Assembly: GCA_938023035.1 (NCBI GenBank)
Contig: CALIDI010000005.1
Location: 1-64,000 of the forward strand
DNA length: 64,000 bases
Direction of reading: 5' to 3'
DNA from: an uncultured Leptolyngbyaceae cyanobacterium
GTDB taxonomy: Bacteria; Cyanobacteriota; Cyanobacteriia; Leptolyngbyales; Leptolyngbyaceae
Shown: positions 10,809-26,459 of the stretch, piece after piece
How positions within the stretch are numbered: position 1 is the first letter of the stretch
Layout of the letters: the number at the start of each line of letters is the position of its first letter
Notes under the pieces: model-generated
What the model saw: only the letters and a program-made list of their open reading frames with translations
Told to the model about the DNA's origin: nothing
Database searches by the model: none
Made by a program: the position numbers and the translations under genes

Positions 10809-11753
10809 TTAAATCATAAATTGTTCCTGGTAACGATCTGCGCCTATTACCACCCGTATTTGAAATAATTCCCCCTCCGTACCACTAAATTGTAGTTGTA
10901 CATAATCATTTAACGCAGTGGCTTCAACGGCTAAAAAGACGTCTCCGCTTTCATCTAAAACAATCAGAGCCAACCCCGGTGTCAGGTAGGGGGATGCCCC
11001 TAGGGGATAAACTCGAAGGAGAACATGGGTGACGTTTTGCTGATCAAGCGCAAGTTTCATCACCAGGGCGATCGAATCGTGATTGGGAAAGGTAATAAAC
11101 TTGGCTTGCTCAATCGTAAACTCTGTAGCCTCTGCCAGTTCGGCAGCGAGCGTGGCGTTACCCCGAAAGGCAAAGGTTTGCTGGTGCGATCGCAGCAAGC
11201 TAGCGACCGACTGCCAGCCTGCGGCAATTTCTCCCTGAAACCAACGCCCCAGGGTAATCATACGAGGTGCAGCCGTGGTTGAGGCCGGGTGCAACTGGGC
11301 CAGATGGTCAAACAAATCAGTGGGCGATCGCCAAAGGCTCAGAGCAACTTCTGAGTGGGCCACCGCCGGGAGAAAGCCAAGAAAATTTGCCGCCGCATTA
11401 ACTTCATCTAAACCAATCGCCACATACCCAATCCGGTCTTCCCAGGTTTCGGGGGGAACCCAGCAATAATGATCTCCTGGCAAGAGTGGTCGGCACTCTA
11501 GTTTTCCGATCTCTAACAGTTGTAAATCAGCCACATCCCCACAGAGCCGCAGAACGCAGTTCCAGCTATCACTGGCGGTCAATTGGGTCGGCACCCCCAG
11601 CATCTGCAAATAGTCATTCATCACCCAAACAGCCAAGGTATTTCGATAAACCTGGGCAGCTTTCACCGGTATGGGCTGCTGCTGAGCAAATTGCTGCGCC
11701 GTTTGGATAGCCGCTTGGGAAATAGGTAGGGGAACAGGGAGAATTTCTGGCAT
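10809..11753 (-). CDS. DUF1822-family protein
   Basis: This is a 314-residue soluble protein of the cyanobacteria-restricted DUF1822 family, whose function is unknown. The family signature is an N-terminal AAQVYRNTLAVWVMNDYLQMLGV segment followed by a W-N-x-V-L-R stretch and a C-terminal small beta domain (residues about 230-314). No membrane segments are present. I chose ATG 11753 over one three codons upstream. It lies 33 bases downstream of the sigma-like gene on the same strand, an arrangement that recurs in cyanobacteria, where these pairs often sit near CHAT-domain or haemagglutinin genes. A role in a sigma-controlled surface or stress response is inference only. Confidence 0.8.
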   Translation of the reverse strand: MPEILPVPLPISQAAIQTAQQFAQQQPIPVKAAQVYRNTLAVWVMNDYLQMLGVPTQLTASDSWNCVLRLCGDVADLQLLEIGKLECRPLLPGDHYCWVPPETWEDRIGYVAIGLDEVNAAANFLGFLPAVAHSEVALSLWRSPTDLFDHLAQLHPASTTAAPRMITLGRWFQGEIAAGWQSVASLLRSHQQTFAFRGNATLAAELAEATEFTIEQAKFITFPNHDSIALVMKLALDQQNVTHVLLRVYPLGASPYLTPGLALIVLDESGDVFLAVEATALNDYVQLQFSGTEGELFQIRVVIGADRYQEQFMI

Positions 11754-21983: not shown

Positions 21984-23093
21984 ATGCAATTACGGATTGC
22001 TGCTTTTACCGTGCATAAGCGTTTTGCCTTGACGATTAGCCGAGGTACAACGGCTCAAACTACTAACGTTTTTGTTGAAGTAGAGCAGGAGGGTATTCGG
22101 GGTTGGGGAGAGGCTTCGCCATTTTCAACCGGGGAACAAACTCAGACTACAGAGGCGATCGCCCGCTCTTTACAAAAGATTGCGCCCCTGCTTAAAGCAA
22201 TCAGCCCCCTAGAGCGCCAGCGCATTGAAAAACTCATGGCCGAAGTGCGCTTACCCTCAGGAGCACGAGCAGCGCTGGATGTGGCTTTGCATGATTGGTT
22301 GGGAAAACAGGCAGGGTTGCCCCTCTGGCAACTCCAAGGTTTAGATTGCGATCGCATTGTACCTACCTCAGTCACGATTGGCATTTGTTCTCCAGAAACT
22401 GCCCAGCAGAGAGTACTGGATTGGCTAGGTAAAGGAACCTTACAAATGCCGTGGCACGGCATTCAGGCATTGAAGGTAAAGCTCGGCAACCCGGCAGGAG
22501 TGGAGGCTGATAAAGCTCTCCTGCAAGCGGTGCAATCGGTCGCTGCCGGGATTTCTAAACTGAGTGTTGATGCAAACGGCGGTTGGGATCTGGCCACAGC
22601 TTTAGCCATGGCAGATTGGTTAGCCGAGCGCGGAGTGACTTATATAGAGCAACCCCTAGCGAAAGGGCAGGAAGGAGATTTACTGGAGTTGTATGAGCGA
22701 TCGCCCCTACCTATCTTTGTCGATGAAAGTTGCTTTACCAGCTATGACATCTTACCCCTGGCAGATCGGGTGCATGGCATCAACATCAAACTAATGAAAG
22801 CAGGGGGGTTAACCGAAGTCTTACGGATGATTCATACGGCCCGCGCCTGTGGCCTCAAGCTCATGTTTGGTTGCTACTCTGATAGCACCCTGGCGAATAC
22901 AGCGATGGCGCATCTTTCCCCCCTCGTAGACTATTTGGACTTAGACAGCCATTTAAATCTACTCGACGATCCCTTTCTCGGTGCCCGCTTCGATGATGGG
23001 CGCATCATCCCCAACCAACAGCCAGGGCTAGGGGTAAGCGCCGCCAGAAAAGAATCAATCAGCCGTAGGAACCACGACCAGGAGGGGATGTAA
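21984..23093 (+). CDS. Dipeptide (L-Ala-D/L-Glu-type) epimerase, enolase superfamily
   Basis: This is a 369-residue muconate-lactonizing-subgroup enzyme. The catalytic and metal residues are visible in order: the KxK motif (IQALKVKLG), Asp in SVDANGGWD, Glu in YIEQPL, Asp in IFVDESCF, and Lys in NIKLMKAGG. The N-terminal capping domain covers about 1-115. The arrangement matches L-Ala-D/L-Glu epimerases, which recycle murein peptides. Related enzymes act on other dipeptides, so the exact substrate is inferred. The start lies 23 bases after the nucleoside transporter stop, so the two may be co-transcribed. Confidence 0.85.
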   Translation: MQLRIAAFTVHKRFALTISRGTTAQTTNVFVEVEQEGIRGWGEASPFSTGEQTQTTEAIARSLQKIAPLLKAISPLERQRIEKLMAEVRLPSGARAALDVALHDWLGKQAGLPLWQLQGLDCDRIVPTSVTIGICSPETAQQRVLDWLGKGTLQMPWHGIQALKVKLGNPAGVEADKALLQAVQSVAAGISKLSVDANGGWDLATALAMADWLAERGVTYIEQPLAKGQEGDLLELYERSPLPIFVDESCFTSYDILPLADRVHGINIKLMKAGGLTEVLRMIHTARACGLKLMFGCYSDSTLANTAMAHLSPLVDYLDLDSHLNLLDDPFLGARFDDGRIIPNQQPGLGVSAARKESISRRNHDQEGM

Positions 23094-23232
23094 AGGCTTT
23101 ACCCTTAGCCGGGAACACCATCCCCACACCCCCCTTAACCCCAATGGACTCAGCAATCTTTCGCCTCTGAATGAGGCATCAGCAAAATATCTCCCCTGAT
23201 TCAAGATCAAACCAGATTGCCACAACCCCAAA

Positions 23233-24159
<927 letters not shown>

Positions 24160-24393
24160 TTAGGGGGCATCACTTTGGCAGGGCAAACTCACTATTGTTG
24201 ACCCAACGATGGCTTTACCAACAGCAATTCTCAACAGAACGGGAACCTAGTCCTTCATTATGCCGCAGAACGCTGAATTATCTTGTCACTTTTATTTTAT
24301 TTACCACTCTAAAATGCCCGAAAGAACAAGTGAATCAGCGTCAAGAAATCAGCATCATTGGGGTGATGACCAGCGCTAATCAACATGCTTACC

Positions 24394-24594
24394 CTAAATC
24401 AGACACAAGCTAGGGGGCTGGTGAGCATCTTTACGCCCACTACCCCGGTGTTGGGGGCGATTTTCAGAGGTAATTGCGTAGACTCCTTGCAAGTTTCCGC
24501 CAGCCATAGATAGGCGGCCTCGACTCACCAGTAAGCCAAGGTACAAAGAGTGAAAGATAGCCCCAATTAAGAAAAGCAAAGTCCAAAGACGCAT
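24394..24594 (-). CDS. patX: PatX-like RGSGR-containing peptide precursor
   Basis: This is a 66-residue protein with a hydrophobic N-terminus (residues 3-23) that looks like a signal peptide or membrane anchor. The pentapeptide RGSGR lies at residues 50-54 in the context HRGSGRKD (bases 24433-24447). RGSGR is the minimal inhibitor of HetR in PatS. PatX proteins are the more widespread carriers of the motif, and their genes commonly sit beside hetR in filamentous cyanobacteria. Here the gene is 252 bases upstream of hetR on the same strand. The ribosome-binding site is weak (AAGTGGA). The combination of motif, small size, N-terminal hydrophobic segment and position makes chance unlikely. Confidence 0.85.
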   Translation of the reverse strand: MRLWTLLFLIGAIFHSLYLGLLVSRGRLSMAGGNLQGVYAITSENRPQHRGSGRKDAHQPPSLCLI

Positions 24595-24758
24595 AAGAAT
24601 TGTCCACTTCAGATCAGCTATTCACTGATACGGAATGCGGAAGAAAGTATCAGGATAAATCTGAGTGAGGACTTGACTAATATGAATTTCTTTGTAAAAG
24701 TTGGGAGAGTTTTCTTAAGCAAGTCCAACAAGGCAGAAATTTCTGGACTCGCCCTCAG

Positions 24759-24878
24759 CTACCCTCATTCCCCACTCCTGATCCCATCAAGGGCGAAAGG
24801 AAGACAACTCGAAGCCCCTCTCCCCACCCCCCTAGCCCCCCGCAAACGAGGGCATGGAGAGGAATAGGGTGAGGGTAG
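24759..24878. repeat. Intergenic palindromic element with CTACCCTCA ends
   Basis: The left arm (24759-24771, CTACCCTCATTCC) and right arm (24861-24878, ending GAGGGTAG) are imperfect complements. They flank a core of CCCCTCTCCCCACCCCCCTAG followed by a purine-rich stretch. It lies downstream of the ABC permease gene and can form a long hairpin. It resembles the family A cores but has different ends. Confidence 0.5.
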
Positions 24879-24899
24879 CCAGACTGACACCTTAGTCCA

Positions 24900-25775
24900 C
24901 TAGGGGCCGATTTGCTGGTCTGAGCGAGGGTCAAAGGCATCTCGCAGGCCATCGCCTAAGAGGTTAAAGGCTAATACCATCAAGGTAATCACTAAACCCG
25001 GAAAGAAGATAGTCCAGGGCTTGGTGAGAGCGTATCCTCCCTTCAAGGCATCGGCCAGAATCGTGCCTAATTCAGGGGTAGGGGGTTGAGCACCTAAGCC
25101 CAAAAAGCCAAGACCGGCTGCTTCCAGGGTGGCGGTGCCAATCGCCAAGGTTGCCTGTACAATGATTGGCGCTAAACTTGCCGGCAGAATATGCCGCCTC
25201 AAGATCTGATAGGGAGAAGCCCCCAAGGCTGCTGCCGCCATCACAAACTCTTGCTCTCGTAGGGATAGCACCATCGATCGCGTAAGCCGAATGAAAATCG
25301 GCACTTGTACCAGGGCGATCGCCATTATCGTACTCTGGAGACCAGCCCCGCGCACGGTTACCAAGGCAATTGCCAACAAAATCGAGGGAAATGCCAGCAA
25401 AATCGTCGTCAGCCAGTTAATTCCAGCCTCAATGAGACCACGGTAATAGCCTGCCAACAGCCCCAGCCCAACCCCAATCCCTAACCCTAGTCCAACGGAT
25501 ACTCCGCTAATTAAGAGAGAGGTGCGAATCCCATACCAAACCAGGGTAAACAAGTCTCGCCCCAGGGCATCAGTACCAAACCACCGGGCCAAAGTCGGAG
25601 CCAAGAGTCGCAGAGCATAATTGCGATCTGTCGCAGGGTTATAGGGATGCAAAATCGGTGCAAATAGCCCTAAGAAAACCAACACCAGTGTTAGCCCCAA
25701 CCCAACCCGCCCGGCTGTGGATTGCCAAAGACGGCGCAGAGGCAGGGGAAGCTCTGCGAACATCACTTGTGCCAT
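24900..25775 (-). CDS. ABC transporter permease, DppC/OppC type
   Basis: This is a 291-residue inner-membrane permease of a peptide- or nickel-type importer. The N-terminal segment (GRVGLGLTLVLVFLGLFAPI, about 22-42) is followed by the FGTDALGRDLFTLVWYGIRTSL signature of the DppC group. The BPD_transp_1 domain (about 85-280) holds the EAA-like loop (EFVMAAAALGASPYQILRRHILP). Its partners (binding protein, second permease, ATPases) are not in the window. It lies 12 bases after riboflavin synthase on the same strand, but a functional link is not evident. Confidence 0.9.
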   Translation of the reverse strand: MAQVMFAELPLPLRRLWQSTAGRVGLGLTLVLVFLGLFAPILHPYNPATDRNYALRLLAPTLARWFGTDALGRDLFTLVWYGIRTSLLISGVSVGLGLGIGVGLGLLAGYYRGLIEAGINWLTTILLAFPSILLAIALVTVRGAGLQSTIMAIALVQVPIFIRLTRSMVLSLREQEFVMAAAALGASPYQILRRHILPASLAPIIVQATLAIGTATLEAAGLGFLGLGAQPPTPELGTILADALKGGYALTKPWTIFFPGLVITLMVLAFNLLGDGLRDAFDPRSDQQIGP

Positions 25776-25787
25776 CGCTCGCCCCCC

Positions 25788-26459
25788 TTAAAGATAGCCA
25801 TGCTCTGCCAAAAACGTTGGGCTTAAGTCCTCTACCGTGTTTGCGAGAGTCCGTTCTGGAGTTTGAACCCGGAGCAGGCGCTCCACATACTTGCCCAAAA
25901 TATCCCCTTCTAGATTGACCCAAGCCCCCTCCTGTAACCGGCTTAGATTGGTTTCAGCATAAGTTAGAGGAATCACAGCCACTGTAAACCAACTGCCGTC
26001 GGTAGCACAATCGGCGATGGTAAGACTCACACCATTAACCGCAATGCTGCCCTTCGGCACAATGTAGCGGGCGGCTGCGGCTGACAGGGTGGCAAACGTC
26101 ATTTCCCAGGCATTCGCCGTGGCGATCGCCTGCTGCAGTTGACCTAGCCCATCCACATGCCCCGTCACAAAATGCCCACCGATCTTACTACCGACCCGAA
26201 GCGACGGCTCTAGGTTGGCGATTGCCGCATCCGCCTGAGCGAGGGTACTACGACTCAGCGTCTCTGGTGAGACATCCGCAATAAAACCCTCCGCCAAGAT
26301 CTCTGTTACAGTCAGGCAAACCCCATCGACCGCCACACTATCCCCCACCTCCAGATCGGCCAGAATTCTCCCGGCCCCATGGGGCAAGCAGTTGACCTGT
26401 AACTGTTCCTGGCTTATTAAAGTGAGGTGACCTAACCCTTGGATCAGTCCAGTAAACAT
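25788..26459 (-). CDS. ribE: Riboflavin synthase, alpha chain
   Basis: This is a 223-residue enzyme that converts two 6,7-dimethyl-8-ribityllumazine molecules to riboflavin. Two tandem lumazine-binding barrels (about 1-95 and 96-195) show the internal repeat: MFTGLIQGLG, SVAVDGVCLTVTE, GHFVTGHVDGLGQ, then SIAVNGVSLTIAD and a second half. I chose ATG 26459 because MFTGLI is the conserved start. The short C-terminal tail (PERTLANTVEDL) is usual. No FMN riboswitch was seen upstream. Confidence 0.95.
   Translation of the reverse strand: MFTGLIQGLGHLTLISQEQLQVNCLPHGAGRILADLEVGDSVAVDGVCLTVTEILAEGFIADVSPETLSRSTLAQADAAIANLEPSLRVGSKIGGHFVTGHVDGLGQLQQAIATANAWEMTFATLSAAAARYIVPKGSIAVNGVSLTIADCATDGSWFTVAVIPLTYAETNLSRLQEGAWVNLEGDILGKYVERLLRVQTPERTLANTVEDLSPTFLAEHGYL

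Follow-up and report, generated by a model that had tools for sequence, protein, structure and literature searches.

The short frame directly upstream of hetR in our window, the whole 64,000-nucleotide stretch of DNA analyzed here, is patX: a real, conserved, and selected gene with a DIF1-like promoter sequence of its own. Judging from its sequence, we consider it probable that the gene encodes an RGSGR precursor paired with hetR, and that the released peptide most likely restrains HetR. The gene is of a known kind, described since 2018. The initial annotation had reported a 66-codon frame with a hydrophobic N-terminus and HRGSGR, 252 bases upstream of hetR (start at 24141) on the same strand. 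All of these features are present as described, and the proposed PatX identity is supported by the adjacency to hetR, the hydrophobic N-terminus, the HRGSGR block, purifying selection, and the DIF1-like promoter. The features of the locus are collected in Table 1.

Table 1. Features of the patX–hetR locus, in positions of the window.
Feature	Position	Strand	Basis
patX, precursor of 66 aa with a hydrophobic N-terminus and a single HRGSGR	24394..24594	-	ORF, relatives, selection
HRGSGR codons, residues 49-54	24433..24450	-	translation
hydrophobic segment of PatX, residues 5-23	24526..24582	-	hydropathy
DIF1-like box TCCTGA, 61 nt before patX ATG	24650..24655	-	leader comparison
probable -10 hexamer TATCAG, conserved spacing	24625..24630	-	inferred from column conservation
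inverted repeat TCCGTATCAG ... CTGAAGTGGA around the predicted start	24603..24634	-	leader comparison, arm-pair test
hetR, 302 aa, downstream of patX	23233..24141	-	profiles, alignment

The patX frame begins with ATG and translates as MRLWTLLFLIGAIFHSLYLGLLVSRGRLSMAGGNLQGVYAITSENRPQHRGSGRKDAHQPPSLCLI. Residues 5–23 have a mean Kyte–Doolittle hydropathy of 2.13 (19-residue window) and may form a signal peptide or anchor, and HRGSGR is followed by a 12-residue tail, KDAHQPPSLCLI. Searches of Pfam and NCBIfam gave no hit for the small protein up to E = 1, and positions 23000–26000 contained no structured RNA matching Rfam at gathering scores.

In order to place the frame among its relatives, we used two sets of hetR loci: the best 80 of 303 loci in titled genome records, and the best 30 of 54 hetR-like places, which were present in 48 of 58 genomes (this genome and its relatives). 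The two sets share some loci, such as the hetR common to L010 and L090, and counting every distinct hetR start once leaves 95 of the 110. We counted frames of at most 130 codons that contain RG[ST]GR and lie within 1 kb upstream of hetR on the same strand. Such a frame was present in 56 of the 95 distinct loci, this one included, compared with 0/95 in each of the three control placements (upstream on the opposite strand, downstream on the same strand, and downstream on the opposite strand); this is the search of relatives that the initial annotation had proposed. In the second set, an RG[ST]GR frame was found within 1.5 kb in 27 of 30 loci, while two loci of one genus had none and one was cut by a contig end. 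Stop codons or loss of RGSGR in close relatives, which had been named as evidence against the gene, were seen neither in the sister species nor in these 27 loci. The two loci without a frame belong to genus g18 (L170 and L171, two genomes of the same family), where hetR has no patX-like frame nearby, and no R[GA][STANC]GR occurred in the 9.0 and 10.4 kb searched.

Within 1 kb, 39 of the 95 distinct loci had no frame. Many of these bear names of genera that form heterocysts, Calothrix, Nostoc, and Scytonema among them, and their patX may be located away from hetR; several other names in this group, such as L029, L077, and L081, we take to be non-heterocystous. patX stood beside hetR in many Leptolyngbyaceae-named records (order Leptolyngbyales). 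An earlier survey did cover intergenic sequence but accepted only candidates with a predicted signal peptide and without a transmembrane domain, and these filters may be the reason for the difference from the occurrence found here. The 54 distinct precursors were picked by their RGSGR motif, so its presence in them is no result in itself; 43 have HRGSGR, 7 have YRGSGR, and 4 have another residue before RGSGR, which forms the C-terminal end in 11 precursors and is followed by a tail in the rest.

Relative to the sister species (L010/L090), patX carries 22, 17, and 42 substitutions at codon positions 1, 2, and 3. The corresponding dN of 0.44 and dS of 1.52 give a dN/dS of about 0.29, which is a rough value, given a nearly saturated dS and an alignment built from amino acids. 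Across the ten codons of PQHRGSGRKD there were five changes, all of them silent, and no replacement. All 14 species pairs had dN < dS, although the values were nearly equal in the pair L019–L034 (dN 0.094, dS 0.102), so that selection on the protein is unclear in 1 of the 14. The codon conservation that the initial annotation wanted checked is borne out as purifying selection, with none but silent changes in the motif block.

The pattern of substitutions also bears on an alternative, namely that patX persists chiefly because it serves hetR as a 5′ regulatory leader, with the peptide of minor importance. A consensus scan of 24100–24920 found neither a sigma-70 promoter nor a terminator, and the missing terminator-like site, together with the shared strand and the short distance between the two genes, is what such a leader would lead one to expect. 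The silent changes in the RGSGR block are not, and neither is a gap between patX and hetR that is anywhere from 203 to 993 bases long in the 54 distinct loci; we therefore regard the leader reading as very improbable and continue with patX as the precursor of a peptide.

Conservation extends to the promoter. Of 54 distinct leaders, 53 have TCC[TG]GA (51 TCCTGA and 2 TCCGGA) at 57–70 nt upstream of the ATG picked by script, compared with 211 of 10,800 random placements (2%) at the same loci. The sole miss, L036, does contain TCCTGAT, closer to its script-picked start. Across the 4.75-Mb genome, TCCTGAT-N16-20-GTATCAG has a single occurrence, at patX. Elhai and Khudyakov reportedly located, in 2018, a DIF1-type motif at most about 69 nt upstream of patX, and the motif in this genome, at 61 nt, falls within that distance. 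Du et al. 2020 (PMC7377430) give the DIF1 motif, placed at the -35 region in the promoters of patS and patX, as TCCGGA. The box here differs from it by one base, and the canonical sequence is therefore absent. We consider this mismatch not decisive, because the TCCTGA variant is the rule in our set (51/53 leaders).

It is important to note that the RG[ST]GR motif alone is weak evidence, because the window has it twice in its six frames, where 60 first-order Markov sequences lead one to expect 0.58 occurrences, and it is not enriched in the genome, where a loose DNA pattern for it (CGN arginine codons) had 42 matches, fewer than the 104 of the reversed control. The second occurrence in the window is RGTGR at 11728 on the plus strand, in an unrelated 50-codon stretch. 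The case for the gene thus depends on hetR adjacency, conservation, and the promoter, not on the motif alone. These observations decide against an open frame that carries RGSGR by chance. The expected motif count leaves some room for such a frame, while its position, the selection on its codons, and the conservation of its promoter do not, and we rejected this explanation as extremely improbable given the conserved frame in relatives, the silent changes relative to the sister species, the 56/95 against 0/95 loci, and the box in 53/54 leaders.

Around the predicted transcription start lies an inverted repeat, which is a candidate operator or RNA hairpin. Its inner pair, ATCAG/CTGAT, encloses a 7-nt loop. 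Many leaders have the form TCCGTATCAG...CTGATACGGA, centered approximately 37 nt downstream of the first base of the box, close to where transcription is expected to begin; in the genus of this genome, the outer arm is degenerate. We compared the fit of each first arm to its own second arm with its fit to swapped ones. In 30 leaders, after the removal of similar ones, the own-arm fit had a mean score of 12.3 versus 9.7 swapped (sd 0.49, 0/5000 permutations), and in all 53 leaders it was 12.4 versus 10.1 (0/2000 permutations), with the reservation for both values that shuffling removes the kinship among leaders only in part. Against divergent partners, the own second arm was better than average in 33 of 53 leaders and worse in 20, and from this split the covariation of the arms appears to be genuine in part of the lineages and missing from the rest. 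The strict dyad CCGTAWCA-N9-16-TGWYACGG was considered separately as a marker of a genome-wide regulon and was rejected, since it showed no enrichment: it occurred in 4 of 39 genomes versus 11 of 39 for the reversed control, with neither in this genome. In three of its four matching genomes, the strict dyad was at patX.

HetR, the presumed target, scores 576 bits against the NCBIfam equivalog NF009718 (cut-off 489) and also matches Pfam S48 and HetR_C, so that both the family profile and the Hood domain are present. No second hetR was found in the 4.75-Mb assembly, which is 95.89% complete and in which this hetR was the only match. Among the best 80 of 303 titled records, the closest HetR comes from a Leptolyngbyaceae assembly, at 92% identity. 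LEELD, the PatS-contact motif of HetR, occupies residues 253–257, just as the initial annotation stated, and the same LEELD is found in 92 of the 95 distinct hetR loci. The equivalent of R223 is kept too: by alignment it is R224 here, numbered differently because of a one-residue insertion in this HetR (for the role of R223, see PMC7476756).

We infer from these sequences that patX and hetR may constitute the "complete activator-inhibitor module" suggested in the initial annotation. The hydrophobic N-terminus would send the precursor out of the cytosol, and peptidases would cut on both sides of HRGSGR, with the 12-residue tail either removed or tolerated. The small HRGSGR peptide would then return, or spread along the filament, and bind the HetR Hood domain at R224/LEELD, and HetR bound in this way would not bind DNA. 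Transcription from the DIF1-like promoter, possibly into hetR, would couple the inhibitor to the activator.

Several parts of this mechanism have counterparts in known systems. The name PatX is said to come from Elhai and Khudyakov (Mol Microbiol, 2018, doi 10.1111/mmi.14003), and the frame shares with that kind of gene a hydrophobic N-terminus, an RGSGR-type motif, a DIF1-like box upstream, and co-occurrence with HetR; it differs in its TCCTGA box, instead of TCCGGA, and in the 12-residue tail after RGSGR. PatS is likewise an RGSGR inhibitor of HetR, with RGSGR at its end and a shorter sequence than the PatX described here. One study (PMC12756182) describes the PatS precursor as likely cleaved in the cytoplasm; the precursor in our window differs in its hydrophobic N-terminus and its tail. 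According to the same study, Nostoc PatX is exported and cut by PatP, and its HRGTGR, which corresponds to HRGSGR in our frame, binds HetR.

The most direct comparison is Leptolyngbya sp. BL0902, a non-heterocystous filament with patX immediately upstream of hetR and a predicted DIF1 promoter (PMC11298460, the source also of the BL0902 data that follow). BL0902 has no nif genes, whereas nifBSUHDKEN is present in our genome, and it has three hetR-like frames compared with the one found here. Deletion of patX in this strain was reported in 2024. There were two gene groups that responded in opposite directions to loss of patX and loss of hetR; in both, deleting the two genes together gave the pattern of the patX deletion, and the authors of the study concluded that PatX acts largely independently of HetR. 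These data put the restraint of HetR by PatX in question for heterocyst-less filaments. The deletion transcriptomes favor an alternative in which PatX is real but, in such filaments, has some target besides HetR or works as a membrane peptide in its own right. However, RGSGR is the one block common to all 54 precursors (which were picked by it), HRGSGR predominates among them (43/54), patX is still beside hetR in 56 of 95 loci, and the HetR contact residues are kept. We judge the other-target reading unlikely on this balance, and restraint of HetR by the released peptide remains our preferred one.

Further support for a peptide precursor comes from relatives in which the motif is repeated. In L117 (G024, same family), a 121-aa frame upstream of hetR (L117:3301-3666, minus strand) contains eight RGSGR units. 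Used as a query against 388 genomes of the class, this protein matched 33, a figure that does not measure frequency because the query is itself repetitive. From 34 places we retrieved 30 loci, and 28 of them held a frame with 2–8 tandem RG[ST]GR copies (L117 and 27 further precursors in L133–L160). Several of these 28 precursors are closely related to one another; TCC[TG]GA lies 59–65 nt before a start in 25 of them, and 23 are followed, inside the locus, by hetR in the same orientation. Copies within one precursor often differ in their codons, with seven codings among the eight units of L117 and all copies different in 20 of the 28, and some precursors swap S and T between copies. Given this difference in codon use, the copies are not just recent DNA duplicates and have probably been kept by selection, which suggests that the repeated RG[ST]GR unit is what selection keeps. 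The differently coded copies thus support the reading of PatX as a peptide precursor, and the multi-copy forms look like multi-copy precursors of peptide signals. No description of multi-copy PatX was found among the listed open-access matches, a scope that does not include the 2018 PatX paper. Genome G008 has a single-copy patX at hetR (L116, G008:C41) and, on another contig (L134, G008:C4), a second precursor that mixes RASGR and RGSGR units.

The genome encodes nifB, nifS, nifU, nifH, nifD, nifK, nifE, and nifN in a cluster at L162 (C21:106000-125000), and all eight score above their curated cut-offs. Directly upstream of patX, at 24900–25775 on the minus strand, is a gene for an OppC-type ABC-transporter permease (BPD_transp_1 and OppC_N). 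With duplicate records counted once, six genomes (this one among them) have a homologue near hetR, out of 112 short-flanked loci searched, and the neighborhood could reflect either a possible link to peptide uptake or just clade synteny. Between the permease gene and patX lies a GC-rich stretch (24805–24876, minus strand) that recurs as four partial copies at other places in this genome; it was not seen in the aligned sister locus.

The analysis adds a well-supported PatX for a Leptolyngbyaceae-like lineage with a nif set. Its interest lies in that lineage and in the by-products, namely the multi-copy precursors and the covarying inverted repeat, and not in the patX–hetR module itself. We tentatively propose, as a possibility we would sooner doubt than assume, that PatX proteins of heterocyst-less filaments are precursors of the multi-copy prohormone type, with one copy here and up to eight in one relative within the family, and are controlled by a dedicated inverted-repeat operator centered on the transcription start. 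If true, HetR–PatX would represent general filament-level signaling, operating here in a nitrogen fixer that may do without heterocysts, with re-uptake of the peptide perhaps occurring via the product of the neighboring OppC-type transporter gene.
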